Positions 7,016-38,351 of a stretch of DNA of 38,351 nucleotides are shown here, piece after piece; positions within the stretch are counted from its first letter, which is position 1; each line of letters starts with the position of its first letter. A model generated the notes under the pieces. That model searched no databases and was not told the DNA's origin. It saw only the letters and a program-made list of their open reading frames with translations. The DNA comes from a virus, in the IMG/VR virus record IMGVR_UViG_3300032073_000077, positions 1 to 38,351 of that record, one strand, 5' to 3'. The translations under genes were made by a program, and so were the position numbers.

Positions 7016-7617
7016 TGAGTACAATAAAAGTAAATCAAATACAAGACACAAGTACAAACGTTGCAGCAAATATTAGTGGTGGTGTAGTATCTTTAACAAC
7101 ACCTTTAGCAGTATCCAGTGGTGGAACTGGTGTAAGTGCAAAAGATGCTTTTTGTTATGTTTTGATAAACAATGGTAGCACAATGTATATGGACGGAGGA
7201 GATTGGGATACTTTCGTAAATAGTGTTACTAATGTTCATGCTTCAACACCTTACTCAAATAATAGTTTTCAGCCAGATGGCATAGGAAGTAACTTTAATG
7301 TTGCTACTGGAATATGGACTTGTTCTGTTGCTGGTAGATATTATGTTCATACTCATGCAACTTTATATTACCCAAGTGCTGTATCTACGAGTTATCTCGC
7401 TTTGGCTTATAGAGCAAGTTCAAGTGATAGTTGGAACTATGGAGTAAGTGGATATTCTTTATACTACAGCAATGATGCAGCATGGTTAAATGGAGAAGTA
7501 TCTGGAATATTTGATTTAGCTGTAGGCAATCAACTATGTGTTTATGGATATTCTAGTGGTGCTGGTTCAACAAGTGTTCAGATGAACAATCATAGTTTTA
7601 TGGGGTATATGATATAA
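7015..7617 (+). CDS. C1q-like tail fibre/receptor-binding protein
   Basis: This is a protein of about 200 residues. The N-terminal tag MSTIKVNQIQDTS is shared in kind with several neighbours and probably attaches the module. The C-terminal domain (about 45-200) has the spacing of a C1q/TNF-like jelly roll: 'NNSFQPDGIGSNFNVATGIW', 'CSVAGRYYVHTHATL', 'LAVGNQLCVYGYSS' and the terminal 'NHSFMGYMI'. Such domains form trimeric knobs that bind surface ligands. I prefer ATG 7015, in a TGATG overlap with the preceding gene, to the in-frame GTG at 7012, because all related proteins begin MS. The cell-surface target is unknown. Confidence 0.75.
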   Translation: MSTIKVNQIQDTSTNVAANISGGVVSLTTPLAVSSGGTGVSAKDAFCYVLINNGSTMYMDGGDWDTFVNSVTNVHASTPYSNNSFQPDGIGSNFNVATGIWTCSVAGRYYVHTHATLYYPSAVSTSYLALAYRASSSDSWNYGVSGYSLYYSNDAAWLNGEVSGIFDLAVGNQLCVYGYSSGAGSTSVQMNNHSFMGYMI

Positions 7618-8159
7618 TGAGTGAATTAAGATCAAATAGGATTACGGATATCGCTGGAACAGCATCTCCTATAATTCCTGGTGGTGTATTGCAAATTCAA
7701 TATACTCAATACACATCTACAAGTACTCAAGCTATATCAGCTAATACCAATACTGTTGTACCTGTATTAACAGTAAATATAACACCAAAGTCTACAAGCT
7801 CAATAATAAAATTAGATGCACATGTATTCTTTGAATGGCAGACTTCAGCAGCTTCTTTTAATAGTGTTTGGTTTTTTTACAGAGATACAACAAAATTAGC
7901 TATCGCCCAAGCTGGCAATAGATTGTGTGGAATAAGTGCTACTTCAATCTCTGAAAATGCAGATGGAGCAAGCACACCTGAAACAGCTAAGTATACATAT
8001 TTTGATACGCCTAGTACAACTAGTCAAATAACTTATAAGGTAGGTGTAATTACACACTATACCACTAATTTCGGTATCAATAGATGCTATGCAGATTCAG
8101 ATACTACAGAATATGAAAGAGGGCTTAGCCTTATTTCAGCAACTGAGATAGGAGGATAG
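7617..8159 (+). CDS. Tail fibre module, TEIGG family copy 1
   Basis: This 180-residue protein is clearly paralogous to the protein at 12501. They share 'TQYTSTSTQ/TQYTSTTTQ', 'VLTVNITPKSTSSII(K/R)LD', 'WFFYRDTTKLA', 'AQAG(N/S)RLCGIS' and the terminal 'SLISATEIGG/SFISATEIGG'. The first 40 residues differ, which suggests a modular N-terminal docking tag followed by a jelly-roll-like receptor domain. The family motif order (ITPxSTSS, FYRD, DTPxTTSQITYK, TEIGG) is typical of small fibre proteins in marine phages. The start overlaps the previous stop (TAATG), so translation is coupled. Function is inferred as host-surface recognition. Confidence 0.78.
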   Translation: MSELRSNRITDIAGTASPIIPGGVLQIQYTQYTSTSTQAISANTNTVVPVLTVNITPKSTSSIIKLDAHVFFEWQTSAASFNSVWFFYRDTTKLAIAQAGNRLCGISATSISENADGASTPETAKYTYFDTPSTTSQITYKVGVITHYTTNFGINRCYADSDTTEYERGLSLISATEIGG

Positions 8160-12500: not shown

Positions 12501-13049
12501 ATGACAAGTATACTTAAAGTAGACAACCTCCAAAATGCTAGTGGTTCTGGCACTCCTTATATAAAAGATGCTGTGTTGCAAATGCCTTTTACACAATACA
12601 CAAGCACAACTACTCAATCTATTACAGGACAAACATCTACTGCAATAACTGTATTAACAGTAAATATAACACCAAAAAGTACTTCATCTATAATAAGATT
12701 AGACTCTAATATAATGTTTGAATGGGGAGTTGCATCAAATACATATAGTGGTATGTGGTTCTTTTATAGAGATACAACAAAATTAGCTCATGCTCAAGCT
12801 GGTAGTCGATTATGTGGTATATCAACTAGCTTATCTTCTCATAGTGCATCTGATGATGATAGTACACCTGAAATGGCTATTGTAACATATTTTGATTCTC
12901 CTAATACAACAAGTCAAATAACTTATAAACTTGGAGTTGAGTGTTATAGTAATGACACCTTACATATTAATAGAACTGTTGGAGATACTGATAATAAATC
13001 ATTTGATAGGGGTCTTAGCTTCATATCAGCCACAGAGATAGGAGGATAG
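12501..13049 (+). CDS. Tail fibre module, TEIGG family copy 3
   Basis: This 182-residue protein is the closest paralogue of the 7617 gene: nearly the same core (VLTVNITPKSTSSII, WFFYRDTTKLA, QAGSRLCGIS, TTSQITYKLGVE) and the same end (SFISATEIGG). The N-terminal 35 residues (MTSILKVDNLQNASGSG) instead resemble the tag on the 7015 and 8161 genes. The mid-domain loop (STSLSSHSASDDDSTPEM) differs in length and sequence from copy 1, as expected of a variable ligand-binding loop. It begins one base after the S74 fibre stop. Confidence 0.78.
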   Translation: MTSILKVDNLQNASGSGTPYIKDAVLQMPFTQYTSTTTQSITGQTSTAITVLTVNITPKSTSSIIRLDSNIMFEWGVASNTYSGMWFFYRDTTKLAHAQAGSRLCGISTSLSSHSASDDDSTPEMAIVTYFDSPNTTSQITYKLGVECYSNDTLHINRTVGDTDNKSFDRGLSFISATEIGG

Positions 13050-13050
13050 T

Positions 13051-13602
13051 ATGGCACTAACAAAATTAAACTTCGGTGGCAATCAGCAAGCACTCGTTGC
13101 GGCTAATATCCCTACTCTCAATCCAACAAGTATGCCTGCTGGTAGTGTTATTCAAACACAAGTAGCACAATTTCAAGAAGGTATAAATGGACATACACGA
13201 GTTGAAACATCTTCTCAAAGTCCAACAGCAACTAATATACTTGTAACAATAACACCTAAGCTTTCAACAAGTAAGTTACTAGTTAACTTTAATGCACAAG
13301 GTGCTTTTAATAGTGCTGTAACTGGTAATGCGATAGAACTATATCTATATAGAAGTGTTGGTGGTGCTAGTTTTGCTGCAGCAGATTTAGATTCTGGAAA
13401 AGTTGCTAATTATAATTCTTATGCTAACGATACTACTGGAGTTATACATAACTCGGCTTTTAGTTGGCTCGATAATCCAGCTACTACAAGTGCAGTTATA
13501 TATAAAATTTATATTGCTTCAGCGAATGGTGGTGGTCTAGTTAAATTTGGTGCTAATACAAATGATTTAAAATTTATAAGTGTTCAAGAGATTAAACAAT
13601 AA
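13051..13602 (+). CDS. Tail fibre module, TEIGG family copy 4 (diverged)
   Basis: This 183-residue protein keeps the skeleton of the jelly-roll-like family: 'QTQVAQFQEG', 'ILVTITPKLSTSKLLVNFNA', 'IELYLYRSVGG', 'WLDNPATTSAVIYKIYIAS' and 'LKFISVQEIKQ' at the end. It also has the common marine-phage lead-in 'NPTSMPAGSVIQTQ'. The N-terminal MALTKLNFGGNQQ tag differs from those of the others. It closes the fibre array and overlaps the first lysis-region gene by one base (TAATG). Confidence 0.75.
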   Translation: MALTKLNFGGNQQALVAANIPTLNPTSMPAGSVIQTQVAQFQEGINGHTRVETSSQSPTATNILVTITPKLSTSKLLVNFNAQGAFNSAVTGNAIELYLYRSVGGASFAAADLDSGKVANYNSYANDTTGVIHNSAFSWLDNPATTSAVIYKIYIASANGGGLVKFGANTNDLKFISVQEIKQ

Positions 13603-16253: not shown

Positions 16254-18002
16254 ATGCTAAGAAATAGAAACTATGAAGGTCCAATCATGACCATCGCTCA
16301 AGAAATAGATGAAATGAAATACAGACAGAAGGGAGAGACCTTCGATGATAAAATAAAGAGGATAGCAAGAGCATTATCAGATGGAGACGAACATAGATTC
16401 GTACTTGAAGATATATTAGGTGAGATGAGATTCCTTCCTGCAGGTAGAGTACAATCTGCAATAGGTTCTAACCGTATTACTACTGCTTATAATTGTTTTG
16501 TATCAGGAGAAATAGAGGATAGTATGGACTCTATTATGGAAAGAGCAAAAGAAGCCGCAGAGACAATGAGAAAAGGTGGTGGCATAGGCTATGACTTTAG
16601 TAAGCTAAGACCTAGAGGAGACCTTATAAAGTCTCTTGATAGTAAGTCTAGTGGACCAATCTCGTTTATGCAAGTCTTTGATTCTGTTTGTCAAACTATA
16701 GCTAGCTCTGGACATAGACGAGGAGCACAGATGGGTGTCTTAAGAATCGATCATCCTGACGTACTTGACTTTATAAGAGCTAAAAGAAATAATGACAAGC
16801 TAACTGGATTTAATATTTCAGTCGGTATCACAGATGCTTTCATGGATGCATTAGAAAATGGAACTGAATATGAGTTAATATTTAATGGTGAAGTCCGTGG
16901 TAGTCTTTCAGCTCAAGAAGTATGGGATGAAGTTATGTCGTCTACTTGGGATTGGGCAGAGCCTGGAGTTTTATTTATTGATCGTATTAAAGAGATGAAT
17001 AACCTTTGGTACTGTGAAGAGATATATGCAACAAATCCTTGTGGTGAACAACCTTTGCCAGCTTATGGTGCTTGTTTATTAGGATCATTCAATCTTACTA
17101 AGTATCTTGAGAAAGAAAAGAAAGGCTATGTATTTAACTTTAAACAATTTAAATCAGATATAAAGCCAGTTGTTCAAGCCATGGATAATGTTGTCGATAG
17201 AACTATCTATCCACTCAAGGCACAAGAAGATGAGGCAAAAAATAAAAGACGTATGGGATTAGGTGTTACTGGTATGGCAAATGCTGGTGAAATGCTTGGT
17301 TATCCATATGCTTCAAAAGAATTTATGACATGGGCTGAAAAAATATTCGCATGTCTAAGAGATAACTGCTATAAAGCTTCGGCTATGTTAGCAAAAGAAA
17401 AAGGTGCTTTTCCTTTATTTAGAAGGGAATACCTTAAAAGTAATTATATTAGGTCGTTACCAGCTTCCGTACAAAGCCTTATAAGAGAACACGGAATACG
17501 TAATAGCCATCTTACATCAATCGCACCTACAGGTACAATTAGTATCATAGGAGATAACGTTAGTGGAGGAATTGAACCTGTTTACAGTCATAAATATGAT
17601 AGAACTATACAGACATTTGATGGTCCAATCGTTGAAACCGTAGAAGACTATGCCTACTCGCATGGAGTAGAAGGTCGTACTGCGGATAGTATTAGTGTTA
17701 ATGATCATCTAGAGGTGCTATTATTAGCTCAACACTATATTGACAGTGCATGTTCAAAAACTTGTAACGTAAGTGGTGATGTGGACTATGATTCATTTAA
17801 ACAAGTATATGTTAATGCATGGAAAGGTGGGGCGAAAGGATGCACTACGTTCCGTATTGACGGAAAGAGATTCGGAATCTTTAACGAAACCGTGGAAGAA
17901 GAAACGAAGGTATCTAGCGAGACTGAGGCAGTGGCTCAAGAAGAAGACAAAGTTGAGGCTTGCTTTATCGACCCAGCGACTGGCATACGAGAGTGTGCTT
18001 AG
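16254..18002 (+). CDS. nrdJ: Class II (adenosylcobalamin-dependent) ribonucleotide reductase
   Basis: This 582-residue protein carries the ten-stranded barrel motifs of class II reductases, which convert ribonucleotides to deoxyribonucleotides with coenzyme B12. Visible residues are redox Cys81 (TAYNCFVSG), the radical-site triad N261/C263/E265 (NPCGEQPLP) and redox Cys274 (AYGACLLGSFNL). The barrel loop IAPTGTISIIG is also present. The C263 to C274 spacing equals that of Thermotoga NrdJ. C-terminal Cys570 and Cys581 should relay electrons from thioredoxin-type donors, though ten residues between them is wider than the usual CxxC. ATG 16254 has AGAGG upstream. It lies unusually between lysis and tail genes. 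No nrdR, metal-binding small subunit or thioredoxin gene is seen nearby. Confidence 0.92.
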   Translation: MLRNRNYEGPIMTIAQEIDEMKYRQKGETFDDKIKRIARALSDGDEHRFVLEDILGEMRFLPAGRVQSAIGSNRITTAYNCFVSGEIEDSMDSIMERAKEAAETMRKGGGIGYDFSKLRPRGDLIKSLDSKSSGPISFMQVFDSVCQTIASSGHRRGAQMGVLRIDHPDVLDFIRAKRNNDKLTGFNISVGITDAFMDALENGTEYELIFNGEVRGSLSAQEVWDEVMSSTWDWAEPGVLFIDRIKEMNNLWYCEEIYATNPCGEQPLPAYGACLLGSFNLTKYLEKEKKGYVFNFKQFKSDIKPVVQAMDNVVDRTIYPLKAQEDEAKNKRRMGLGVTGMANAGEMLGYPYASKEFMTWAEKIFACLRDNCYKASAMLAKEKGAFPLFRREYLKSNYIRSLPASVQSLIREHGIRNSHLTSIAPTGTISIIGDNVSGGIEPVYSHKYDRTIQTFDGPIVETVEDYAYSHGVEGRTADSISVNDHLEVLLLAQHYIDSACSKTCNVSGDVDYDSFKQVYVNAWKGGAKGCTTFRIDGKRFGIFNETVEEETKVSSETEAVAQEEDKVEACFIDPATGIRECA

Positions 18003-25580: not shown

Positions 25581-28061
25581 ATGAACTTAAAAAAATATAC
25601 ACAAAAAGATAGGTATGGAAATATGTTTTCCTACGAGTTCGATGTACCCTCTATGCAAGAGATTCCTCAACCAGATCCAGAGATATTTAAACCAAAGGGA
25701 ACTGATACTGTACCTGCTATGTTAACTCCTGGAGAGAATGTAGTGAATGCAGAAGCATCTAGACTTCCTGGAGTACAACCTATGCTTGATAAACTCAATG
25801 ACAAAGGTCGTGCTATACAGAAAGAACAAGGTGGACCGATACCTAGTTACAATTCAAGAGGAGATAAAGTAGACTACTATGGTAATAATTATGGTCAATC
25901 AACTATCAATGCAGAAATAAACACATTAAAAGGAATGGGATTATCTGATGCACAGATTATACAGGCTCTTATGAATAACCTTAATATGTCTCAAGGAGAA
26001 GCTCAATCGGCTTTAATGCCTACCTATAAACAAGAAGGCGGAGTCATCACAGAAGACATGATGCCTAGCGTACTTGATGCTATAAGGAAAGTAGAATCTG
26101 GTGGTGATGTAAATGCAGTATCTGAAGTAGGTGCAGCAGGACCATATCAGATAATGAAAGCCACAGCATTAAAACCTGGGTATGGTGTAGAAGCTATAAG
26201 TGGTGCTGATAGATTTAATGAGGTAAAGTCGAGAGCCTTTGCTAAACAATACCTACAAGGTATTATGAAGGCACACCCAGAGTTTACTAAAGATGAAGTG
26301 ATAACAGCTTATCACTCAGGAGTTGGTAATGTTCTCAAGGCTAAAGGTGGCGTAGAAGAACTCGGTACTCGTGGTAAGAGATATGCTGGTAAAGTAAACA
26401 CCGCTATGGGTATACCTAAGATAATTGAATATGATGCTACACCTCAAGAAGCAGGATTTATGTCTGCACAGGCGAGCACTATGTCAGATAGAGAAAAGAA
26501 AGATGCTGAATTGTTAAAAGGAATAACACAAGAAAGGGATATCGATGATCGTAATTTCTTTACTAAACTATTTAGCGATGCACCTCCAGCTGAAGATCCA
26601 GTATTACCTATGGATGAGAGTGAGAATGCTTTAGGTGTTATCCCTGATTTTAAAAGTAAATTTCCTCAAATGGTTAATACTTTATTTAAAGCTCCTCCTA
26701 AAACAGTTGAAAGCATAGTCGATGATGACCCATCTGGAGCAGAAATAACTGCTAATAGTGCTGCTAAATTGATTGAAGAAATGGAGGCTTCAGAGGGTTA
26801 CGCAGAAGAAGAAGGTAAGCTAACCTTAGATAAGGCAGATACTGAATGGGCTAAAAAGAATCTTACAGGTAAATACGAAGGTGACTTTAGTCAATACCTT
26901 ATTAATAAAGGAAAAGAATATGGCGGTATTGCATTAGATAAATCTATAGAGTATTTTAAAAATACTTTTTCAAATATGTTTGATGGAGAAGAGCTTGCTC
27001 GAATGGCTCTTATGTATACTGGTTCTCGTGCATTAGGCTATGACCATCTTTCTTCTATTAAATATGGAATGAAAAACTATATTAAGCGTGTTGATAACGA
27101 AATAGCTCAACGTAAAAAGAATGTTGCAAGTGCTGCATGGATTAAGGAGTATACTCCAGAATCAATGGCTCTCTATTTAAAGTCAGGAGATATGAGTGAT
27201 CTAGCAAAGAAAGGAGCAACACTAAAGAAACCTAGTGGTAGTGTTTATGTTGTAGGTGAGGGAGAAGTACCTACATTTACAATGTCAGATGGAACTGAAA
27301 CAGCATTTCATAAAGGACAATATAAACCTTTTACACATAAAGACTTGATAGGTCGAGTAGACAAAATGAATAATGATGTCTATGGTGATGTGGCTGTTAG
27401 TAAACGATTTGCAGAGTATGCTAAAGAACAAATTAAAAAGGCTAATGCAGATGCTGGTCTTAAAGCAGGTAGAAAAGACGATGATACCTACGATACTATG
27501 TTTAGAGAGAATGCTAATTCGATTGGAACTAGAGCTAATGCAGTATATAGGGAAGTTCTTAGATCTAACTTTATATCAATAAAACAAGCTCCTCGCTATG
27601 AGATGGCTATACAAAGAGGTATAGATGCATATCTCAGAGATGTTGCCCTTGCTAAAAAGAACAACAGAACTGCTCCAAAGAGCGTAGAAGCCTATATAAG
27701 AGAGCAAGTGTTTGTTCCGTTATCAGGCGTTGGAGGAGATCAGGTCGGAAAGACCTCTACTCAGCATATAACTGAGATAAATAGAGAGGTTAAGAGAGGT
27801 ATTCCAGGAGCTCCAGACAGTCAAGAGTATTTAGAAGAATACAAAAGACGATGGGCAAAGAAGACTGTAGCTTGGAATCAACTACGATTGACTAATCCTA
27901 AACAATACCAAAAGATTAAAGACGGTGTTGATAGGCGTAATAATATCTGGCTCAAAGAACAACCAGATAAAACAACTATAATAAAAAATTGGGATCCATT
28001 TACATATTGGGTCTCCATAACTCCAGAAAGTGAAATTGATAGGCTGATTGACACAGCATAA
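25581..28061 (+). CDS. Internal virion protein with lytic transglycosylase domain
   Basis: This is an 826-residue protein. The N-terminal 'DTVPAMLTPGENVVNAEAS' (about 40-60) is a motif common at the start of ejection and tape-measure proteins, followed by GG mini-motifs (KEQGGPIP, KQEGGVIT). Residues about 155-270 form a soluble lytic transglycosylase (SLT) domain: catalytic E172 in 'RKVESGGD', 'GAAGPYQIMKATA', and 'AYHSGVGNVLKAKGG' in place of the usual AYNAGxG. It should cut peptidoglycan glycan strands when ejected, like the N-terminus of T7 gp16. The remaining about 550 residues are helical and charged. A strong hairpin terminator follows the gene. Confidence 0.85.
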   Translation: MNLKKYTQKDRYGNMFSYEFDVPSMQEIPQPDPEIFKPKGTDTVPAMLTPGENVVNAEASRLPGVQPMLDKLNDKGRAIQKEQGGPIPSYNSRGDKVDYYGNNYGQSTINAEINTLKGMGLSDAQIIQALMNNLNMSQGEAQSALMPTYKQEGGVITEDMMPSVLDAIRKVESGGDVNAVSEVGAAGPYQIMKATALKPGYGVEAISGADRFNEVKSRAFAKQYLQGIMKAHPEFTKDEVITAYHSGVGNVLKAKGGVEELGTRGKRYAGKVNTAMGIPKIIEYDATPQEAGFMSAQASTMSDREKKDAELLKGITQERDIDDRNFFTKLFSDAPPAEDPVLPMDESENALGVIPDFKSKFPQMVNTLFKAPPKTVESIVDDDPSGAEITANSAAKLIEEMEASEGYAEEEGKLTLDKADTEWAKKNLTGKYEGDFSQYLINKGKEYGGIALDKSIEYFKNTFSNMFDGEELARMALMYTGSRALGYDHLSSIKYGMKNYIKRVDNEIAQRKKNVASAAWIKEYTPESMALYLKSGDMSDLAKKGATLKKPSGSVYVVGEGEVPTFTMSDGTETAFHKGQYKPFTHKDLIGRVDKMNNDVYGDVAVSKRFAEYAKEQIKKANADAGLKAGRKDDDTYDTMFRENANSIGTRANAVYREVLRSNFISIKQAPRYEMAIQRGIDAYLRDVALAKKNNRTAPKSVEAYIREQVFVPLSGVGGDQVGKTSTQHITEINREVKRGIPGAPDSQEYLEEYKRRWAKKTVAWNQLRLTNPKQYQKIKDGVDRRNNIWLKEQPDKTTIIKNWDPFTYWVSITPESEIDRLIDTA

Positions 28062-28068
28062 TAACACT

Positions 28069-28132
28069 TATCCCTAAAGGATTCTTAACACACCCTTATA
28101 GGGGAGAATCCCTTTAGGGATACCTTATTTTA
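28069..28132 (+). terminator. Long hairpin, probable terminator, after the 826-residue gene
   Basis: The segment 28069-28085 (TATCCCTAAAGGATTCT) pairs with 28105-28122 over 17 base pairs with a single bulged C. The loop holds a second short stem, CCCTT/AGGGG. CCTTATTTT follows, an imperfect T tract. It could be a terminator, or an RNA processing site like those cut by RNase III in T7. Confidence 0.65.
28085..28108 (+). promoter_or_regulatory. Second copy of the intergenic motif, before the 1488-residue gene
   Basis: CACCCTTATAGGGG (28091-28104) matches the motif at 16210-16223. In its context, ACACACCCTTATAGGGGAGA, it also recalls single-subunit RNA polymerase promoters of the T7 group around their TATAGGGAGA end. 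It sits in the loop of the long hairpin. Promoter function is a hypothesis. Confidence 0.35.
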
Positions 28133-28146
28133 ATCAGGAGGTCTAT

Positions 28147-31100
28147 ATGGCTACATTTCAAGATAATCAAGGCAAACAATACACATGGGTAGATAGTGAT
28201 ACCATAGCAGATAACGACAGAAGTTATCGTATTGTAGGTTATAATGCTAGAGAGACCTCTAAGGTTGTTCCTGACAATGAAACAGGTTTACCTAGATTTA
28301 TTATGGGTCAACAAGGTGGTGACGAACAATCCGAAGCTACGCAGAGAATAGCTGCTGCTGGCGGTTTTAATATTATTGAAAGCACAGGAGAGTTTGATTC
28401 TTATGGAAGAGAACTGATTAGAATAAAAGATGCTAAAGGAAATGATCTTAGTAATACACTAATAAGATCAGGAGCAGTCGGTATTAATCGATATACCGAT
28501 GAACAAGGCTTAAAGGCATACGAAGATGGTTTAATGGCTAGAGAGTCAGGGAAGGTATCTAACTATGGTAAAATAGCTGATGAAGTAATTACAAAGAGAC
28601 CTATCTATTTTAAAGATACTCCGTTAATGGAGAAAGCATTTGGATCAAGTCCTACTACTGAGAATGATTATGCCCAACAAGTACTACAAGTTATTGCAGA
28701 ACAAAGAGGTTTAAATCTACAAGACGATGATCAGTTAAGAGAAGCAACTAAAATATTAGATAGCGGAAACTATGATCAACGTAGCATACCTTTTACTGCT
28801 ATAGCTTTTAGGTCTCCTGATAGAACAAAAGAAGGAATAGCCTACAATCAATTCTCAACTTCATGGAATCAAGGCTGGGCTGGAATGGCTAGAGGTCTTA
28901 TGGGTTTTTCAGAGCTAATGGGAGTTACCATTGGCAACGAAGAAATGAAAGAATGGGGTGGTGAAGGTGTTAAAATATATAGTGAAGAATTAAAAAGAGC
29001 ACCTAGACTTGAGAGCATGGATTACCGTGATGTTGATGATGTATGGGATGCATATAGATTTATTTCAAATAACTTAGCCATGTCAGCACCTTATCTCGTT
29101 ACACTTACTACAGGTGCATTATTAACACCAGTTACTGCAGGTGTTTCTATGGGTATTGCCTATGGATCAGTCGGAGGCAGTTATGCTGGTCAAGTATGGA
29201 ACGATATTGAAGGACCGAAAGGTAGACAAGAAGCTGGATTATCTTTATTAGCTGGTACTGCTATGGCAGTTATTGATGCCTTCGGTTTTAAAGGCTTGAT
29301 AAGTCCATCCAGAATACTTAGCAAAGAGGGGAGAGAATATCTAGCCGAAGAAATAGCTAAACGAAGTAAAGGAGAGATAACAGTTGAACAGGCAAGAGAA
29401 TCAGTTAGAGTAATGTCTGTTAAAAAGATGAAAGAGACCATGGAAGGTATGGGTAACTTCGCCTACGATCTTGCTAAACAAGGGAGGCTTGCTCCGTTAA
29501 TTGCGAAGTCACAGTTCATTAAAAGTGGAATTAAAGGTGGTCTTCGAGAGGCTGGCACTGAAGCTGCTCAAGAAGGTCTTGGTTACCTTGCCTCTAAAGC
29601 GATGTCAGAAGGTGGTCTTGATAAAAACTTTGATATGGAAAAGTTTAAAAACTTATTAGCACAAGCTGCAGTGGCAGGTGGTACTCTTGGTACTGGATTT
29701 GCAACTGCTGGTGAGCTAGTTCAAGTTGGAAAGAATAAGGTTCTTAAGCGTGATCTTGAAGAAGGTAAACTAGATAGTTTAAATCCATTTGATAGAATTA
29801 GACGAGAGTTTAATCCTGAAGAAAAAATAACTGATCCTGTTACTGGAATAGAAAGATCTTTCGGTAACAATGATATTATAGATGAGAACAAAAAAGGATC
29901 GGTCAGCCTAAATGTTAATAGTATGGATGAAGCCAATATTAATAGGCTTAATAAAGAACGAATCCTACTAGGTAAACTATCTGATACAGAGCTTAATCAA
30001 AAACTTTCGGATATAGAAAATCGAATAGCTAAAAACGATGAAAGTATTGCTTTAAATTCTGATATAGCAAATCATCCTGATGTAGCTGAAAAAGACAAAG
30101 CAGAGGCTAGGGTAAGAAATAGAAATCTTGAAGGGGATAGGAGAAGAAATCTAGTAAATAAGGAACAAGTAGAAAGAGAGACAACTGGAAGAGCACAAGG
30201 AAGGATAGCTGAGCTAACTCCTAAAGAAGTAGAAAGGATAGAAAACGATATAGCTAAATATGAAGCTAGACCAAAAGATGTTGAACCTCAAGAGTCTAAA
30301 GTAAAACAAGCTACAGAAGCAAGACAAAAAACTTTAGAATCAAGAAAAAGAGACAGAACTTTTTGGGATAAACTTAAAAACTTTAAAGAGTATTTACCAA
30401 AAGGATATCGTGCAGCAGCAACTTCTATCTTTAGACCAGAGTTACTTAGACTAAGTGAGACATTAAGAAAATTAGCTTCTCTAATAGGATCACCTTTAGG
30501 TTCTATGTACAGTGGTAGAAATGTAGAACACTATTCAGATCATTTATTCAGTAACAGATTTATGTCTATACTAAAAGCAAAAAATATATTTCAAAGATTC
30601 GGTTATATAGATACCTTAAGTAACTCAAAAGAAATATCTGAAATAATATATAGATATATGAATGCACAAAAATTAGATCCCACTAGTGCAGAGGCTATTG
30701 CTTACTTTAATAGTAAAGAATACATCAAGCACAAATCAGCTCTTGAAATAACAGTCAATGATCTAAATGACTTAGTACAAACTATGTTTGATTTAGAATA
30801 TGAAATGATGGTTAAAGAAATAGGGGCTGGTGCTGCCATAAGAAGAATCAATGACCCTAAAGATCCTTTCTGGATGAATACAGGTTCTTTTGATTGGAAA
30901 AAAGTTAGACAGAACGAGTCTGCTTGGAAAGCTTTTATGGCTAAGAATGCTAGAAAAATGAATGGAGAAAAATATACTTATTCAGAGATTAACGATCTTT
31001 ATATTAAGATATCTAATCAAGAAGAAGCCAGTGATTTTTCTTTAGTTGAAGGAGACTTCTGGCAACCTAACACTTTTAAAACTAGTAAAGGTCAAAACCT

Positions 31101-32613
31101 CTCTACTGCTGATGGCTTTAGTGATTTTGCTAATACTGACATCATACTTAATATGACTCACTTGTCTAGACAGTATGCTAAGTATATTGCGTACACTACT
31201 TACTTCGGAGCAGGTGGTAAAGACCTTGACTATATGCTTGGTCAAATGAAGGAAGAAGGTTTAAGTGATGACCAAATAGCTGAAGTGGCTCAAGGTGTAA
31301 AAGATATTATTGATGCAGGTACAGGTAACTTTAACAATATTAAAAGTAAAAACTTAAACTTTTGGCAAAGAAAAGCTTCTTTCTTTTCTACGTTAATAGG
31401 ATTACCCTTCTCTGTTCTCGCATCCTTTGCAGAATTTGCTATGTTACTTTATAATGATCCTGGATTTCCTGTGATTAAAGAGGGAATTAAAAAAGCAATG
31501 GGTGAAATGATTACTATATTTAAAGATATAGAAAAAGGAACTCAAAACCCAGCATTAGAAAATGTACCTAATTCAGCTAAAGATTCAAAGGCTTTACATA
31601 GACTAATGATGAATGGACTAGTACATGAAGACGCAGTCGGTGCAACAAGATTAGGGATGGGTGAAACAGATGTTGCCCAAGCTTGGTTTTTAAAGAAATT
31701 TTTTAAGGTTACTTTAATATCACCTTTAACTTTATTCCAAAGAATACTAGCACAAAGTCAAGTAGCTGGTTTTGTTAGTGATAGATTAAGACTATTAGCA
31801 GCAATACCTGAAGGCTACCCTATGAATAACCGACAACAAGAAGTCTATACTCAAATGCTTAATATGGGAATGGATGTTGATACAATGGTTGCTATGTATA
31901 TCAAGTATGATGGCAATCAAGCGTTATTTGATAGCCTTATGGAAGACACTACAGATAAAGTTGCTCAAGCTGATATGGATTTTATGAATGAGCAAATGGA
32001 AATAGGATCTTATGCTTTTATAAATGAAAGAGTTCAAAACCCTAAGGCATACAATAGACCTTTGTTATTCCAAGACCCTCATTACCAACTATTCTTACAG
32101 TTTAACGGTTTTATAAGTACATTTACTGCTAATATTATACCGAAGTTATGGATTGACTATACTAAAAATGGTTCTCCTAGAATGAGATATAATACCTTTG
32201 CATTAATGATCATTATGTTTGCCTTAGCTGGATTATCACAGTGGTTAAAAGACTATATCAAGTTTAAAGACAGTACACCTTACCTAACTAAAGAACAATT
32301 ACTTCAAAGAGCACTTATGGCTTCTGGAATATTAGGTTCAGGTGAAAGAGTATTACAAGCAGCATTTCCACTGTATAGGAGTAGAGATGAGAGCATAGTC
32401 GATAGAGTCTTTGGTGAAACAATAGGTGGTGCTCCCTTTGTCCGTAACGTTGCTAACATAGGTAAATCAATAGGTTCTGCTCTAGAAGGAAAAACTGAGC
32501 AGGCAGTTAGACAAGGGTTAACAGCAACTCCGTTAATCGCACCAGCAACACCAATAAGAAATATAATACACGATTCAATATTTAATCCAACAGATATTAG
32601 ACCGTACAAATAA
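28147..32613 (+). CDS. Giant internal virion protein with N-terminal SNase-like domain
   Basis: This is a 1488-residue protein. Residues 10-112 match a staphylococcal nuclease fold: D18 in DSDT (cf. SNase D21), R28 (R35), N33 (D40), E36 (E43) in 'RIVGYNARET', and R88 (R87) in 'DSYGRELIRI', followed by 'NTLIRSGAVG'. The three catalytic residues Arg/Glu/Arg are kept with the SNase spacing; one metal ligand is Asn. The rest resembles a very large ejection protein of the T7 gp15/gp16 kind: hydrophobic stretches at about 308-350, 1078-1101 and 1351-1368, long charged helices around 600-750, and 'GYRAAATSIFRPELLRLSET'. AGGAGG precedes the start. A role in DNA delivery is inferred; the nuclease activity is a prediction. 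Confidence 0.8.
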   Translation: MATFQDNQGKQYTWVDSDTIADNDRSYRIVGYNARETSKVVPDNETGLPRFIMGQQGGDEQSEATQRIAAAGGFNIIESTGEFDSYGRELIRIKDAKGNDLSNTLIRSGAVGINRYTDEQGLKAYEDGLMARESGKVSNYGKIADEVITKRPIYFKDTPLMEKAFGSSPTTENDYAQQVLQVIAEQRGLNLQDDDQLREATKILDSGNYDQRSIPFTAIAFRSPDRTKEGIAYNQFSTSWNQGWAGMARGLMGFSELMGVTIGNEEMKEWGGEGVKIYSEELKRAPRLESMDYRDVDDVWDAYRFISNNLAMSAPYLVTLTTGALLTPVTAGVSMGIAYGSVGGSYAGQVWNDIEGPKGRQEAGLSLLAGTAMAVIDAFGFKGLISPSRILSKEGREYLAEEIAKRSKGEITVEQARESVRVMSVKKMKETMEGMGNFAYDLAKQGRLAPLIAKSQFIKSGIKGGLREAGTEAAQEGLGYLASKAMSEGGLDKNFDMEKFKNLLAQAAVAGGTLGTGFATAGELVQVGKNKVLKRDLEEGKLDSLNPFDRIRREFNPEEKITDPVTGIERSFGNNDIIDENKKGSVSLNVNSMDEANINRLNKERILLGKLSDTELNQKLSDIENRIAKNDESIALNSDIANHPDVAEKDKAEARVRNRNLEGDRRRNLVNKEQVERETTGRAQGRIAELTPKEVERIENDIAKYEARPKDVEPQESKVKQATEARQKTLESRKRDRTFWDKLKNFKEYLPKGYRAAATSIFRPELLRLSETLRKLASLIGSPLGSMYSGRNVEHYSDHLFSNRFMSILKAKNIFQRFGYIDTLSNSKEISEIIYRYMNAQKLDPTSAEAIAYFNSKEYIKHKSALEITVNDLNDLVQTMFDLEYEMMVKEIGAGAAIRRINDPKDPFWMNTGSFDWKKVRQNESAWKAFMAKNARKMNGEKYTYSEINDLYIKISNQEEASDFSLVEGDFWQPNTFKTSKGQNLSTADGFSDFANTDIILNMTHLSRQYAKYIAYTTYFGAGGKDLDYMLGQMKEEGLSDDQIAEVAQGVKDIIDAGTGNFNNIKSKNLNFWQRKASFFSTLIGLPFSVLASFAEFAMLLYNDPGFPVIKEGIKKAMGEMITIFKDIEKGTQNPALENVPNSAKDSKALHRLMMNGLVHEDAVGATRLGMGETDVAQAWFLKKFFKVTLISPLTLFQRILAQSQVAGFVSDRLRLLAAIPEGYPMNNRQQEVYTQMLNMGMDVDTMVAMYIKYDGNQALFDSLMEDTTDKVAQADMDFMNEQMEIGSYAFINERVQNPKAYNRPLLFQDPHYQLFLQFNGFISTFTANIIPKLWIDYTKNGSPRMRYNTFALMIIMFALAGLSQWLKDYIKFKDSTPYLTKEQLLQRALMASGILGSGERVLQAAFPLYRSRDESIVDRVFGETIGGAPFVRNVANIGKSIGSALEGKTEQAVRQGLTATPLIAPATPIRNIIHDSIFNPTDIRPYK

Positions 32614-32625
32614 TAGGAGACTTAA

Positions 32626-35600
32626 ATGGCTAAACGTTATACAACAGCGGAGCTTCAAAAAATTAAATTAGATCAGGAGAATCAATTAAATTTTGATGCT
32701 GCTAATCCGATATTAGAATCTGCGGATAATATTATGTCTGGTAATTTACCTTCAGAAACGGTAGGCAGTAATACGCCTATCGAATCTATTGCAAACACAT
32801 CAGTAGTAACAGGGAGACCCTCTCCTTCTACTATAGGTGGACCAACTCCAGATATAGGTTCTCCAGCTAGAGGGCTAGGGGTTGTTCCAACACAAGCTGA
32901 TTACGAAGATCAAGCACAGGCAGGTGATCTTGCTATTAACGTTGATGCTGCAGATCCTTTTGCAGTAGTATCACCTACTTTAGCTACACCAGAAGAATCT
33001 AAGGGGTTGTTACAATCAACAGTTAGTAGAGGGGCTATTAATAGAGAAAACTTTAAAGAAGAAAATCTTAAAGCCATACCTGAATTAATTAATTTACAAC
33101 AACAACTAACTAATGATGAATTAAAATATGGTAATAGGGAAGCAGAGTATATCGCTAAATTATTTGAAGCAACTTCTAAAGCAACTACTGATGCCACTAA
33201 TATATTTGATTCTGACTCATTAGCAATAACTAATGAACAAAAAACTCAGGCATTTGGTAATGCTCAAAATTATTTAAACGAAAATGCTGATGAAGTAAAC
33301 TATATAATAAGAAGTGTAGACTTATTAAATATGTCTGAAGATTCTAGTGATATTAATTCACCACTTAAAAAAGATCTCGGTCCAATCATAGCAGCTGCAG
33401 CTATATTAGAAACTGCTCAAATACTAAGTGATCAAGCTGCAGAAGTAGACGATCAGGATTCTGAGAAAAGACATTCTAACGATATGTCGAAGGAAGTTAT
33501 CGGTCCAAGGGTCGGAGCTAAAATTGAACAAATGATTTTTGGTTCTAAAGACTTAGATACACCTAATAGGTCAGGATTACCTAGAGATTATGGATATGTA
33601 TCGAGATTAACTGGACAACAACGAAGTCTTTTAGGTCAAATATCAATGGATGCTATGGCAAGGAGTCCTTTATTTGATTTCCTTACAGAAGAAGAAGTGA
33701 TTGATATTAATACTGGAAAACCTAAGACCATATATAACACTACAAGACTGCAATATTATAATTTAAATAGGGTTGTTAATGCTGTTAGGGATATGTTAGG
33801 AGAAAGTGGTCCTCAAAAACCTGTCAGACATAGTAAGAAAGGTAAAGGAAGGCTAGCTCCTATGAGTGAGAAGGGAGCTTATAAAACCTCTAAGATGACT
33901 AAGAATGTATCTAAGAGTGAAGCAGTAGAGGAAATGGATACTGCTCGTCATAAAGCAGACAATATAGTACATACTGTACCTCCTCAAATACCTATAATAT
34001 ATGCTGGATTTCTTAATGCTGGATTAGATGCCGCAGCTCTTCAAAAGAACGGTACTGATTTAACATCGAGTGCAGCAGCTAAATATACTAAGCAAGACTA
34101 CGAATACTACCAAGATAAGGTTCAAGACTATCTCGAAGATTACCTATTAAAAGAAGAAAAGCTTGGATTAAAAGTAGAAGATCTTAAAACATATGATCCA
34201 CTTACAGGAGCACCAGCCACTACCTTCATGAGAGCCGCAGAATTAAAAGCTGATGGCGTAGTTGCTCGACATAAAGAACGCTGGGAGCGTAGAATAAGTG
34301 AAGGCTTTGACAATATAGGTAAGCCAATATACTTTGATAATAGATCAATTTCTTTTGGTATGAGAATGTTTGGTTCACAGGATGAATTAAACTATTGGCA
34401 AGATAAAATAGCGAGGGGCTTATTACATCCAGCCTTCCCTACAATATTTAAGAAGACTGGAGAAGCAAAGAATTTAACAGGTCAAGTAGATATGCTTGGA
34501 ACACCTTTAAATGTAAATGATTATTACTCCTCAGTAATAGATAGTGCTATAGAGAAATCAAAAAATAATTTAGAATACGATAAATTTACTGATGAAGAAA
34601 ACTATCATCGTATAATGGCAAGAACTCTCGTTCCAGATGCTGATAAATATATCTTTGAAAACTATGCAGATGTTCTTCAAGTATACAAAGAAATGTATAC
34701 AGAGCTTGTGTCTCTCGGTCAACAAATCAATGAATTTAAAGATTCTCAAAAAGAAAAGGTAGCTACACCTGAGGCGATTGATCTCAGTGCTCGAAATCCT
34801 AATGCAATAGACAGAATGCCTATCAGTGCTTCTCTTAATGAGTACTTAGAAAAAATAGGTAAGGATGAATTCTATTACGCATTAAACAACCTACCTGATT
34901 TAGCTTTGTATGATGCTAAAGGTGTTGATCAAGACTTTGCAACTAAAGTAAAAGCAGGTGCTGATGGAGTAGCTAACGGTGCTACTATTCTAGGTTACCA
35001 ACTAGGAATAGAAGAAATAATAACAAGAGGAGGCATACTCCTTAATGGTAGAGAAACTATCGAAGAAGACCTAAGAGATTATGTGTTCAATAAGATGGCT
35101 CAACTCCCTGAAATAAAAGCAGATAATGGAGACCCTGATCAATGGGATCTTTCATTCAGAGCAATGGCAGCTGATAACAAAAAGAAAGACCTAATGAAAA
35201 GCCCAGTCATGACTACTATGTATGGTCTTGAAGCTGATTTTCAAAAAGGTGCAGCTGAACAATTTGTTAAGAAGAATCCTAAATACTTTAAACATCTTGA
35301 TGAGACTAATCCAACTAAAATAATCGAAGGCTTAAGAAATTATATGGCTGACGGATTAAAACTTGGATTGGGTCCAGCACTAGATCATGCAAATTTAGCT
35401 AAACGTATTGGTCGTCTTTTCGTATTGGCAGATGAACCTGCAATAATGCGTGGACCAAAACTAGGCGAAACAGATTCTAGTCGCTTTCCTCTAGTTGCTA
35501 CAGGTGTTAAATCATTAGTTACTAGTGATGACACATATATGCTAGGTACAGGAGCAACACCTGAAGGTCAAGACATAGCAACTACTCGAATCAAGACTAC

Positions 35601-36369
35601 TAAAGCAGTAGCTGATGTCGTAGAACCTAAAGCATCAAAGCTAATAGGTGCTGGCGGACAAAGGAGTAAGCCAGGAAAAGGCAGTGGAACTATGGATAAG
35701 ATACCAGTTGCATCTACAACAGCTCAAGATGCTGCAGTTATTATTAAGTATCTTAATGGAGAACTAGAGCCTGACGAATTCTTTATGCAAATTTATGATG
35801 GTGTTATTGGTGATGTTAAATCTTTCTTCAAGATGACTGAAGCAATCAATAGAATCTTTTTAGATGTGGTTCAAAATTATAAATTACTAGAAGAAGAACA
35901 GCGAATGGTTGTTAATCTTAAAGAGAAGTTTAAAGCAGAAGCGAAAAGCAATCCTGATGGGATAAAAGATTTAAGTCCAACAGGAAGATATGCATATCTG
36001 GGTGAATTTCTATCAAATGGTTATATGAGAAATGAAACTCTTAAAAAAGATTTACCGTTTAGAACTTCAGATAGTAGAATTGCTAATCTAGATAACACTA
36101 AGGCTAGTCCAGAAGATACTCGACATAAAGCAAATCATCGAAGATTACAAGCAGTTAAAGCAGACATTAAAAATATAGCAGATAAGTTAAATTATAACAA
36201 CAGATACGCTGCTACTAAACAACTAACCAATGTGGAATTTAGTAAACTCTTTAATGAACTAATAACTGCACTCGGTACTTTATCTGAGTTAGATAAAAGA
36301 GTAATTGAAGCTAAAGTAAAACAAAAGAAAATTGCAGATAAAATTAGAAAGACTATGCAATATAAATAA
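32626..36369 (+). CDS. Putative virion RNA polymerase (N4 vRNAP-like single-subunit RNAP)
   Basis: This 1247-residue protein lies at the end of the ejection block. Residues 1 to about 540 are low-complexity then helical, with no assignable family. From about 566 it follows the order of single-subunit RNA polymerases: 'YFDNRSISFGMRMFG' with R573 resembles the D-x-R-G-R region, although the T7 R425 position is Ile. Motif A has D780 (GADGVANGATI). Motif B has K858 and Y866 eight residues apart (MKSPVMTTMYG, cf. T7 K631/Y639). 'STTAQDAAVI' resembles the HSxDxxH segment. Motif C has D1058 (MQIYDGVIGD, cf. T7 HDSFG D812). It is probably packaged and ejected to transcribe early genes. No sequence search has been made. 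Confidence 0.72.
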   Translation: MAKRYTTAELQKIKLDQENQLNFDAANPILESADNIMSGNLPSETVGSNTPIESIANTSVVTGRPSPSTIGGPTPDIGSPARGLGVVPTQADYEDQAQAGDLAINVDAADPFAVVSPTLATPEESKGLLQSTVSRGAINRENFKEENLKAIPELINLQQQLTNDELKYGNREAEYIAKLFEATSKATTDATNIFDSDSLAITNEQKTQAFGNAQNYLNENADEVNYIIRSVDLLNMSEDSSDINSPLKKDLGPIIAAAAILETAQILSDQAAEVDDQDSEKRHSNDMSKEVIGPRVGAKIEQMIFGSKDLDTPNRSGLPRDYGYVSRLTGQQRSLLGQISMDAMARSPLFDFLTEEEVIDINTGKPKTIYNTTRLQYYNLNRVVNAVRDMLGESGPQKPVRHSKKGKGRLAPMSEKGAYKTSKMTKNVSKSEAVEEMDTARHKADNIVHTVPPQIPIIYAGFLNAGLDAAALQKNGTDLTSSAAAKYTKQDYEYYQDKVQDYLEDYLLKEEKLGLKVEDLKTYDPLTGAPATTFMRAAELKADGVVARHKERWERRISEGFDNIGKPIYFDNRSISFGMRMFGSQDELNYWQDKIARGLLHPAFPTIFKKTGEAKNLTGQVDMLGTPLNVNDYYSSVIDSAIEKSKNNLEYDKFTDEENYHRIMARTLVPDADKYIFENYADVLQVYKEMYTELVSLGQQINEFKDSQKEKVATPEAIDLSARNPNAIDRMPISASLNEYLEKIGKDEFYYALNNLPDLALYDAKGVDQDFATKVKAGADGVANGATILGYQLGIEEIITRGGILLNGRETIEEDLRDYVFNKMAQLPEIKADNGDPDQWDLSFRAMAADNKKKDLMKSPVMTTMYGLEADFQKGAAEQFVKKNPKYFKHLDETNPTKIIEGLRNYMADGLKLGLGPALDHANLAKRIGRLFVLADEPAIMRGPKLGETDSSRFPLVATGVKSLVTSDDTYMLGTGATPEGQDIATTRIKTTKAVADVVEPKASKLIGAGGQRSKPGKGSGTMDKIPVASTTAQDAAVIIKYLNGELEPDEFFMQIYDGVIGDVKSFFKMTEAINRIFLDVVQNYKLLEEEQRMVVNLKEKFKAEAKSNPDGIKDLSPTGRYAYLGEFLSNGYMRNETLKKDLPFRTSDSRIANLDNTKASPEDTRHKANHRRLQAVKADIKNIADKLNYNNRYAATKQLTNVEFSKLFNELITALGTLSELDKRVIEAKVKQKKIADKIRKTMQYK

Positions 36370-36371
36370 AC

Positions 36372-36420
36372 ATACCCCACAGGGAATCCTTATGGAAACC
36401 TTGTGGGGTATCTTTATTTT
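36372..36420. terminator. Bidirectional terminator between convergent operons
   Basis: ATACCCCACAGG (36372-36383) pairs with CCTTGTGGGGTAT (36399-36411) with one bulge. TCTTTATTTT follows on the plus strand. On the minus strand the stem is followed by GTTTATTTAT. It lies between the rightward structural block and the leftward RNA polymerase block and can stop transcription from both sides. Confidence 0.8.
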
Positions 36421-36682: not shown

Positions 36683-38351
36683 TTAACAGAAGAAGTAATC
36701 TGATTGAACTACTTCTTTAATATTTAAAGCACCGATAGTCGGTTGCTCACCTTCATAGCCTCTTCCAAATGGAATTGAGTCATAGAAGTTTTCTTTATCG
36801 TATAGCTTAACGAACTTATCTCGTGCCTCTATCATAAGGTCTTCTACCTTAGTGGCATGAGCACTAAATGAGTCATGTACTGCTCCGAAGTCACCATCCC
36901 AATCGGCTACTACAAGAGCCATATGAGCTGCATCAGAGCTATGAACAAAGTTAGGACTGATACCACACATAAACCCTCGTCTATCTGGTATATCTGTCTT
37001 CTCTCGTATCACATGCTTGAATCTCAGTTCACCTTCTGGTGTATTGAATCCGTAACAGTCTACCTTTGCAGGTCTAGTACGATAACATTCGTATATCACT
37101 GGAAAACCTGACTCGGATTCCCATTGTATACCACGACCTCTATCAGTACCATAAGTTGCTAACCAATTAGAGATTTCTTTATCAGCTAATCGTTGCAGAT
37201 ATCTCATAGTATCTAATGGACCTGGACAGACCTCTTGTATAGCTCTTATTACTTGATTACTAAGCTCATCACAATCCCAAGTATTGATATTGTAATCTTT
37301 AGTATAACCAAACTGATAACAGTCACTATACATAGACTCTGACATTTTCTTCTGACCACAGCTGTAAGCCCTAGTCATAGCCCCTCTCTTAGCTATCCCT
37401 TTCCTGATATGCTTCATAGGCATCTGCCTTTCTTCAAACCATTCAGGCATCCTCTCGCATAATCTCTTTGCCACTTGAACATAGAAATCATTGGGTACAT
37501 CTTCAGAGGTTAATCCTACTAGTCTACCTGTAAGGGAGTCTTTAGACATAGCACCTAAGTGTTGCCAACCATTATTAGCACCATCAATAGGTATCGGTAG
37601 CTGAGTATAGAACTCTCCTTTACTCTGGGAGTACTTATACCACTCGATACAACAAGCCATGAATGCTATTCGTTTCTCTGCTTCTTCTGCAAAGATCCTC
37701 ATCTCACCCATCTCAATTATCGTATCAATATTCTCTTGAGTCCATCTAGCTCTATCATCTAGTGTCATCTTATCTACAGATATAGTATCAAGTTCTTCTT
37801 CCTGTAATATCTTCTTATAGTCTGAAGATGCCCAGTTAGGTATCTGATCTATACTGTATGACTGATTAAATGAACAAGCAGTATGTACTGCCAACCAGAA
37901 GTTAGCTGTCTCATCAAAGAGTTTTCCTTTGGCAAAGAGTAACTGACTACGAGCTATATCTGCTCCTTGAAAGTTAAAGAACGGTTCACTATAATATAGT
38001 CTACCTCTATAGTCTGCATCTAAGTAGAAGCTAAACTCTTTGTCTAACCACTTATCAGCTGCTGCCATAACCTCTTTGACTTCTCTATTCTTTGACGCTT
38101 GGCGTTGATATAGCTTAGCGTTCTCATTCTTATCCTCACCATCAAAGGTATCGTTGCTAATAAACGTATCCCAATTCTCTAGGATAGCCTTATGTACATC
38201 AGGGTTTACAGTAAACCTAGTTGCCTGTAACTTATCGATTGCCTTTACAAATGGCTTATCGAGATACTTAAAGAACTTATGCTCTTTAGATTTATCCCAA
38301 GTCTTTATAACTGACTTCCCATTATTTTGGAATAGGCTCTTTATAGGAGGT
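36683..38351 (-). CDS. T7-like single-subunit RNA polymerase (5' end beyond window)
   Basis: About 555 codons are visible. The frame stays open from the ATG at 38068 to the window edge (PPIKSLFQNNGKSVIKTWD, AIDKLQATRFTVNPDVHKAI), so that Met is internal and the N-terminal promoter-binding domain lies outside. Landmarks match T7 RNA polymerase: 'DADYRGRLYYSEPFFNFQG' (D-x-R-G-R), motif A 'IPIDGANNGWQHLGAM', motif B 'RKGIAKRGAMTRAYSCG' (Lys and Tyr eight apart), 'NFVHSSDAAHM', and motif C 'GAVHDSFSAHA' near 36870. The terminus is hydrophobic-aromatic (SDYFFC), like the Phe-Ala-Phe-Ala foot of T7. It should transcribe the middle and late genes. Its leftward direction is opposite to the structural genes, unlike T7. 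Confidence 0.95.
   Translation of the reverse strand, partial: PPIKSLFQNNGKSVIKTWDKSKEHKFFKYLDKPFVKAIDKLQATRFTVNPDVHKAILENWDTFISNDTFDGEDKNENAKLYQRQASKNREVKEVMAAADKWLDKEFSFYLDADYRGRLYYSEPFFNFQGADIARSQLLFAKGKLFDETANFWLAVHTACSFNQSYSIDQIPNWASSDYKKILQEEELDTISVDKMTLDDRARWTQENIDTIIEMGEMRIFAEEAEKRIAFMACCIEWYKYSQSKGEFYTQLPIPIDGANNGWQHLGAMSKDSLTGRLVGLTSEDVPNDFYVQVAKRLCERMPEWFEERQMPMKHIRKGIAKRGAMTRAYSCGQKKMSESMYSDCYQFGYTKDYNINTWDCDELSNQVIRAIQEVCPGPLDTMRYLQRLADKEISNWLATYGTDRGRGIQWESESGFPVIYECYRTRPAKVDCYGFNTPEGELRFKHVIREKTDIPDRRGFMCGISPNFVHSSDAAHMALVVADWDGDFGAVHDSFSAHATKVEDLMIEARDKFVKLYDKENFYDSIPFGRGYEGEQPTIGALNIKEVVQSDYFFC

Follow-up and report, generated by a model that had tools for sequence, protein, structure and literature searches.

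A putative compact N4-type virion RNA polymerase in a probable three-gene ejection cassette of marine phages

Three adjacent genes on the 38,351-base linear IMG/VR record IMGVR_UViG_3300032073_000077 (hereafter the window, meaning this whole stretch) encode three large proteins, P1, P2 and P3. We propose that the three genes probably specify the ejection apparatus of a podovirus, the last protein of which is a compact, unfused virion RNA polymerase (vRNAP) of the N4 type. A sequence-only reading of the window had assigned to these genes a lytic transglycosylase, a staphylococcal nuclease (SNase)-like domain and RNA polymerase (RNAP) motifs. The open reading frames (ORFs) are confirmed exactly at the positions then given, all on the plus strand, and the three domain assignments all hold by Pfam, residue conservation, profile–profile comparison and predicted fold. 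P3 is the final gene of the structural (virion) operon, and the gene of a second RNAP converges on it from the opposite strand. The window is probably a piece of a phage genome, with the early region lying outside it. The features of the cassette are as follows.

25581..28061, plus strand: P1, 826 residues, ejection protein with a wall-cutting domain (ORF; Pfam SLT)
26058..26360, plus strand: SLT lytic transglycosylase domain, P1 residues 160–260 (PF01464)
28147..32613, plus strand: P2, 1,488 residues, large ejection protein with an N-terminal SNase domain (ORF; phrog_6958)
28177..28545, plus strand: SNase domain, about P2 residues 11–133 (family profile, conserved residues, fold)
29368..29619, plus strand: P2 residues 408–491, weak likeness to the N-terminal domain of the N4 vRNAP gp50 (hhalign)
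31177..32169, plus strand: P2 residues 1011–1341, conserved LUZ24-type ejection-protein region (phrog_6958; tblastn)
32626..36369, plus strand: P3, 1,247 residues, putative compact N4-type virion RNAP (motifs, hhalign, model)
34363..34365, plus strand: P3 Arg580, invariant (44/44), aligned with the N4 stretch 'GRM..NPQ..K..R'
34963..34980, plus strand: P3 RNAP motif A, DGVANG, with predicted catalytic Asp780 (44/44) and Gly785 (44/44)
35197..35226, plus strand: P3 RNAP motif B, KSPVMTTMYG, Lys858 to Tyr866 at a spacing of 8 (Lys or Arg at 858 in 43/44, Tyr866 in 43/44)
35794..35814, plus strand: P3 RNAP motif C, YDGVIGD, with predicted catalytic Asp1058 (44/44)

P3 and its kinship to the N4 virion polymerase

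The motifs of P3 were examined in an alignment of 44 distinct sequences including that of the window, to which the others are 14–30% identical. Besides the residues listed above, Met862 and Gly867 of motif B are kept in 43 and 42 of the 44 sequences, respectively. The motif spacings fit those of single-subunit RNAPs, namely DGxxNG for motif A, KxPxMxxxYG for motif B and H/Y/F-D-A/G/S for motif C; the corresponding stretches of the N4 vRNAP were read from the alignments. Arg580 is presumably the counterpart of the arginine in the DxxGR motif of T7-type enzymes. The predicted structure is in agreement with the motifs. An AlphaFold2 model of residues 201–1247 has a predicted local distance difference test score (pLDDT) of 79.4 and a predicted template-modelling (TM) score of 0.81, and every one of its top 50 Foldseek matches in the PDB is a single-subunit RNAP (best E 2.9e-14, TM-scores 0.34–0.46 by query length). 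With VIA-align the model gives Z-scores of 21.3 to the yeast mitochondrial RNAP, 19.5 to T7 RNAP (1s76_D) and 19.3 to the N4 mini-vRNAP (3c2p_B), the last with the longest aligned length (733); both structural lists are taken as support for the listed rows only. By motif, profile and predicted fold, P3 is a single-subunit RNAP, and the RNAP motifs first read from the 1,247-residue protein are borne out by their conservation, by a profile comparison with shuffled and reversed controls and by the predicted structure.

Searches with the single P3 sequence against Pfam, PHROGs, PDB sequences and, by tblastn, phages gave nothing relevant, and it is at the level of family profiles that the kinship of P3 is seen. 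Compared by hhalign with ten Schitoviridae vRNAPs, the P3 family reaches a probability of 99.4% (E 1.6e-21); the alignment spans 536 columns and brings the motifs into register. The controls give at most 0.1% for 20 column shuffles and 0.1% for the reversed profile. Comparison with three T7-like RNAPs gives 96.0% (E 4.4e-9), and comparison with the second RNAP of the phage group itself 94.0% (E 1.4e-7). Among the single-subunit RNAPs compared, P3 is nearest by sequence profile to the N4 virion RNAP, a ranking that is indicative given the different sizes of the comparison sets. A hidden Markov model (HMM) of the P3 family also matches the vRNAPs of pYD6-A (9.3e-11) and N4 (0.0026). Cysteine is absent from P3, from 43 of the 44 family members and from all ten N4-type vRNAPs examined, whereas 63 full-length relatives of the second RNAP have 9–17 cysteines each. 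P1, P2 and P3 together contain no cysteine at all, with about 22 expected from the other ORFs of the window.

P3 shares with N4 a homologous RNAP catalytic domain, the lack of cysteine and the company of a second phage-encoded RNAP, as well as the position of its gene as the last of a late operon convergent with the early side and, probably, a role in early transcription. P3 is, however, not a canonical Schitoviridae gp50. The latter is a single chain of 3,500 residues in which the RNAP lies between an N-terminal and a C-terminal domain, whereas P3 is a free-standing protein of 1,247 residues. This one-chain layout of about 3,500 residues is not found here, a stretch like the N-terminal domain being present only in P2, and a full-length vRNAP, one of the seven hallmark genes of Schitoviridae, is absent from the ORFs of the window.

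The partners of P3 and the conservation of the gene order

P2 is made of two parts. From about residue 201 onwards it is homologous, as judged from sequence profiles, to most of LUZ24 gp50 and of the Lyrsu01 particle protein: family columns 201–1285 align with residues 64–956 of LUZ24 gp50 at an hhalign probability of 99.5%, and the Lyrsu01 particle protein is matched at 99.6%. In addition, phrog_6958 (virion structural protein) matches P2 at 1.8e-18, Lyrsu01-03 match the region 1011–1341 by tblastn at 1e-8, and relatives of P2 are annotated as particle proteins. Within this part, residues 408–491 resemble the N-terminal domain of N4 gp50 with an hhalign probability of 55 (E 1.2e-4; at most 0.1 for 15 column shuffles, 0.2 for the reversed profile), a likeness that is suggestive only.

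The first 150 residues or so of P2 are a divergent SNase domain by family profile and predicted fold. The family profile matches staphylococcal nuclease among PDB sequences at 4.7e-6, and the top 50 Foldseek matches to the model (pLDDT 94.3) are all SNase (best E 1.2e-4, range about 1e-4 to 1e-3). Pfam SNase makes no call on P2 of the window and is reached in 5 of 34 members (best 5.7e-5); despite the missing call, profile, residue conservation and fold agree on the SNase-like domain that had been claimed from the sequence. Asp16, Asp18, Arg28, Glu36 and Arg88 are invariant in 41 of 41 members, and we take them to be the counterparts of Asp19, Asp21, Arg35, Glu43 and Arg87 of SNase. Is this domain still a nuclease? 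It could instead be an oligonucleotide-binding (OB) fold that has lost the activity and grips DNA or builds the channel. Position 33, the counterpart of the calcium ligand Asp40, varies (Asn 21, Asp 10, Ser 6 and Glu 4 of 41), the TM-scores to SNase reach only about 0.5, and a nuclease stored beside the genome would be risky. Against this stands the invariance of the five residues among domains that are 24–51% identical to that of the window. We therefore hold that the domain is likely to be catalytic, the non-nuclease alternative being a serious one that we nevertheless incline to doubt; a role of the nuclease in entry is a guess.

In P1, the SLT domain (PF01464) is called with an E-value of 2.2e-12 and 47 bits, against a curated cut-off of 21.3. 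Its putative catalytic residue is Glu172 within KVESGGD, presumably the glutamate of the E-S motif of the SLT family. An N-terminal tag (DRYGN ... KGTDTVPAMLTPGE) is common to most proteins in the P1 place of relatives, and it is behind this tag that the proteins differ. SLT scores above its cut-off in 19 of 38 records. Among a further 17 P1 regions fetched, 16 were domain-scanned (L099–L113, L115): five have GH24 phage lysozyme, five the tail lysozyme PF18013 and one a weak SLT_2, and the remaining five have no called domain. The wall-cutting module is swapped between unrelated folds behind a shared tag, while the SNase-bearing P2 and the RNAP stay. Such replacement of one wall enzyme by an unrelated one, within an ejection protein that is otherwise conserved, clearly exemplifies modular exchange and perhaps reflects adaptation to host walls. 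Some stretches of the five uncalled proteins resemble further hydrolase types.

Dozens of relatives within a marine phage group have the genes in the order P1-P2-P3. Searching viral_contigs directly with the P3 and P2 proteins returned no loci, and the convergent second RNAP served as bait instead. It brought in 76 loci, of which 56 were examined; the 20 left out either ended close behind the RNAP without a usable ORF in the P3 place or held no more than a fragment (L076). A complete ORF of more than 1,100 residues stands in the P3 place in 46 of the 56 loci. A P2 bait gave 38 loci, with a downstream ORF in 37, all of which match the P3 profile at 3e-84 or better; the SNase profile matches 37 of the 38 P2 proteins, the sole miss being a truncated protein. 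The P2 and P3 profiles were partly built from the same contigs, and the independent check is confined to eight contigs new to the first set, in which the P3 profile matches 7 of 7 downstream ORFs and the SNase profile 7 of 8. A comparative search for the gene order, as the sequence-only reading had proposed, finds a P3 behind P2 in 37 of 38 P2-bait loci and the three-gene order in a cultured isolate. In bacterial genomes (genome_contigs, with the patterns used), no P2 relative and hence no prophage or host was found.

The isolate is Roseobacter phage CRP-7 (58,106 bp), in which the genes gp35-gp34-gp33, all annotated 'hypothetical', stand in the same order and converge with an early operon ending in a second RNAP. 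Its gp34 matches P2 over nearly the full length (4e-23; hhalign 100%), SNase domain included, and gp35, in the P1 place, has a pesticin-like lysozyme domain (3.6e-6) in place of SLT. The protein gp33 is very divergent, and its link to P3 is by hhalign only (97.8%, E 1.3e-12), BLASTP of P3 against gp33 being at chance level. Phage and host are in culture (PMC6918029). In the sections of its description considered here, CRP-7 is a new group without significant synteny to known isolates, and a T7-like RNAP is the only one named. Searches of open-licence full texts turned up no paper that describes a vRNAP for the CRP-7 group, and PMC10386132 and PMC11288001 have no bearing on the question.

Proposed entry pathway, competing readings and prior art

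In the parts of the N4 ejection study drawn on here (PMC12633501), gp52 and gp51 form the channel, and the vRNAP gp50 is expelled last and transcribes from three early promoters. By analogy with N4 gp52, gp51 and gp50, we propose the entry order P1, P2, P3. P1 would open the wall by cutting peptidoglycan. P2 would help to build the envelope channel, spanning the envelope or anchoring at it, with a nuclease head. P3 would be ejected last, refold in the cytoplasm and, remaining at the channel, start the transcription of the earliest phage genes, an activity that would probably help to draw in the genome. The middle or late genes would subsequently fall to the second RNAP, which would be synthesised early from the opposite strand, as they do to RNAP II in N4. 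We infer all of these steps, namely that the proteins are packaged and ejected, that a channel forms, that the nuclease is active, that P3 transcribes early genes and that the two RNAPs divide the labour. The trio had earlier been read as an entry kit that opens the wall, handles DNA and starts early transcription, and this idea gains support from the homology of P2 to the LUZ24 and Lyrsu01 particle protein, from the cysteine-free trio and from the nearness of P3 to the N4 vRNAP.

Several observations weigh against such a pathway, besides the variable Asp40 counterpart of P2. The P3 profile finds no RNAP among PDB sequences by HMMER, and Pfam RNA_pol is reached at 0.1 or below by just 5 of 30 P3 members (best 9.6e-4). 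The P3-family HMM misses the Sulfitobacter N4-like phage AX, an annotated carrier of such a protein, and misses CRP-7 gp33 at E up to 10, the motif A of which is imperfect. The C-terminal domain of the N4 vRNAP has no counterpart in P2 or P3 by hhalign, and hairpin-type early promoters like those of N4 are not consistent across the 15 early-side regions searched. The cassette of this phage group is known here from sequence and predicted structures.

Could P3 then be a genuine RNAP that is not packaged but made late, for the late genes, with the host RNAP starting early transcription? The packaging of P3 is a prediction, no consistent vRNAP promoter emerged from the 15 regions, and another RNAP is already encoded in the early operon of the phage. 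However, the nearest kin of P3 are the N4-type vRNAPs, and no other RNAPs of this fold are known to be packaged (for the packaging of the N4 vRNAP, PMC12633501); in the examined loci P3 is the last gene of the ejection operon, next to P1 and P2; and it is free of cysteine as they are, unlike the second RNAP. We consider a non-packaged P3 improbable. Still less probable, and by a good deal, is that P3 is a former polymerase that now serves as an inert structural or channel protein. The extreme divergence of the family, the replacement of the motif B glycine by alanine in 2 of 44 and of the tyrosine by phenylalanine in 1 of 44, and the imperfect motif A of CRP-7 gp33 would suit a decayed enzyme. 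Both catalytic aspartates, Asp780 and Asp1058, and Arg580 are, however, invariant in all 44 of these otherwise hardly alike sequences, a constancy that would be expected from catalysis rather than from use as a scaffold.

An ordinary ejectosome of the LUZ24/T7 type without a transcription function, which P1 and P2 alone would fit, deserves almost no credence, being contradicted by the identity of P3 as an RNAP by motif, profile and fold and by the lack of an HMMER match to the P3 family at E up to 10 in LUZ24, Lyrsu01, HMO-2011 and ICP2. These four were considered as hidden carriers of the P3 RNAP and rejected for want of that match, which is weak evidence, as CRP-7 and AX, carriers by hhalign and by annotation respectively, were missed too; hhalign of the family against LUZ24 gp50 and gp51, ICP2 gp5 and gp6, and HMO-2011 gp22 and gp25 gave no match either. 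The authors of the StenR_269 study, in the passages considered (PMC10747016), guessed, on the grounds of protein size and the absence of cysteine, that Zobellviridae carry vRNAPs; for ICP2 the P3 profile lends this suggestion no support, although this, too, is weak evidence.

The packaged, compact vRNAP that we favour has partial precedents. The ejection proteins gp14-gp15-gp16 of the T7 core resemble the cassette in including a transglycosylase domain, which is carried by gp16, and the T7 RNAP is made after infection and is not packaged. The Bruynoghevirus LUZ24 and Lyrsu01 differ in having no SNase domain ahead of the large ejection protein and no vRNAP behind it. The N4 ejection proteins gp50-gp51-gp52 seem, from the parts of the study considered (PMC12633501), to be without a wall hydrolase, whereas P1 has one. 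According to the relevant sections of Iyer et al. 2017 (PMC5512222), N4-like RNAP modules occur only in N4-like phages and prophages, some fused to lysozyme or transglycosylase domains. Those polyvalent proteins resemble the cassette in combining an N4-type RNAP with wall-degrading domains and in being delivered with the phage DNA, and differ in that the RNAP of the cassette is unfused, short and outside N4-like phages (PMC5512222, same sections). The suggestion that the combined layout may be undescribed thus stands for the compact three-gene form outside N4-like phages, and falls for an RNAP together with lysozyme or transglycosylase domains, which is already on record in one prophage protein (PMC5512222, same sections). 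An IMG/VR survey of N4-like vRNAPs dropped, by the portion of its account used here, all homologues below 2,500 residues (PMC10654107), and a compact vRNAP was probably overlooked because of this. The cut-off is a concrete blind spot for short vRNAPs.

A wider picture may be drawn, which as a whole is speculative and in our estimate doubtful. A marine lineage outside the N4-like family would inject a compact, unfused vRNAP that starts the infection and reels in the genome, its wall module being freely exchanged. The nuclease may be calcium-gated, acting in the periplasm and not in the capsid or the cytoplasm. As P3 lies collinear behind a P2 with a stretch like the N4 N-terminal domain, the 3,500-residue polymerase of N4 may have arisen by the joining of two ancestral ejection proteins that the cassette would still keep apart. 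Until now, the injected single-chain RNAP has been viewed as a giant protein and as a hallmark of the N4-like phages. If our reading is right, a free-standing vRNAP of about 1,250 residues, with the cultured isolate CRP-7, would be a far simpler system for early transcription and transcription-driven genome entry, and small natural vRNAPs would be available for structure and tool work.

Early-side hairpins and other features of the window

Repeated hairpins were found in 5 of the 15 early-side regions, and in control loci, which are mostly coding, such a hairpin pair occurs in 3 of 61. T runs follow the hairpins of G037 and one of those of G023, which were set aside as terminators rather than promoters; of the G034 pair, one member seems to be located within coding sequence. 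Candidate repeated hairpins are left in 2 of the 15 regions, those of the close relatives G005 and G010. Tandem hairpins of the form GGGTAGC..GCTATCC followed by GGAYANTTSTRTCC, two per genome in two related genomes, are located at about 141–200 and 643–687 of L116 and at about 13210–13255 and 13715–13762 of L118. Their copies differ by compensatory changes, lack a T run and stand about 30–45 nt upstream of the start codons of the first early ORFs; they are candidate vRNAP promoters or structured leaders. In CRP-7, a type II hammerhead ribozyme match (RF02276, 50.1 bits, gathering threshold 37) is located at 570–633 of L122, just upstream of the first early genes, and a hairpin there, upstream of the first early gene, was rejected as a promoter, being part of this match. 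The early regions of G037 (L119 2291–2361) and CRP-7 (L122 9670–9743) contain tRNA genes; the window has none.

Three further features border the genes of the cassette.

28069..28122, plus strand: long stem-loop separating P1 from P2, possibly for attenuation or processing (read from sequence; the scan lists the 3′ part, 28108–28121)
36372..36411, plus strand: 10-bp stem-loop followed by CTTTATTTT, likely terminator closing the virion operon (read from sequence; T-rich tail)
36683..38350, minus strand: second, ordinary single-subunit RNAP of the convergent early operon (PF00940 1.6e-52, phrog_414 2.2e-94; 5′ end cut by the contig end)

The stem-loop between P1 and P2 is nearly perfect and may set the ratio of P1 to P2 through processing or attenuation, and the loop of the likely terminator is too long for the automated stem-loop scan. 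The left part of the window encodes a scaffold protein, the major head protein and many tail-fibre genes, followed by a ribonucleotide reductase and a 1,418-residue virion protein that also matches LUZ24 gp56. The Pfam and PHROGs scans recognised neither a terminase nor a portal in the fragment. The tail-fibre cluster holds three copies of one small family (phrog_6942) at 7617–8159, 12501–13049 and 13051–13602. In both the window (16254–18002) and CRP-7 the structural operon includes the gene for ribonucleotide reductase. The CRP-7 gene (gp46/gp45/gp44, L001 7378–9996) is annotated in two pieces separated by a small ORF, the pattern expected of an inserted intron or intein.

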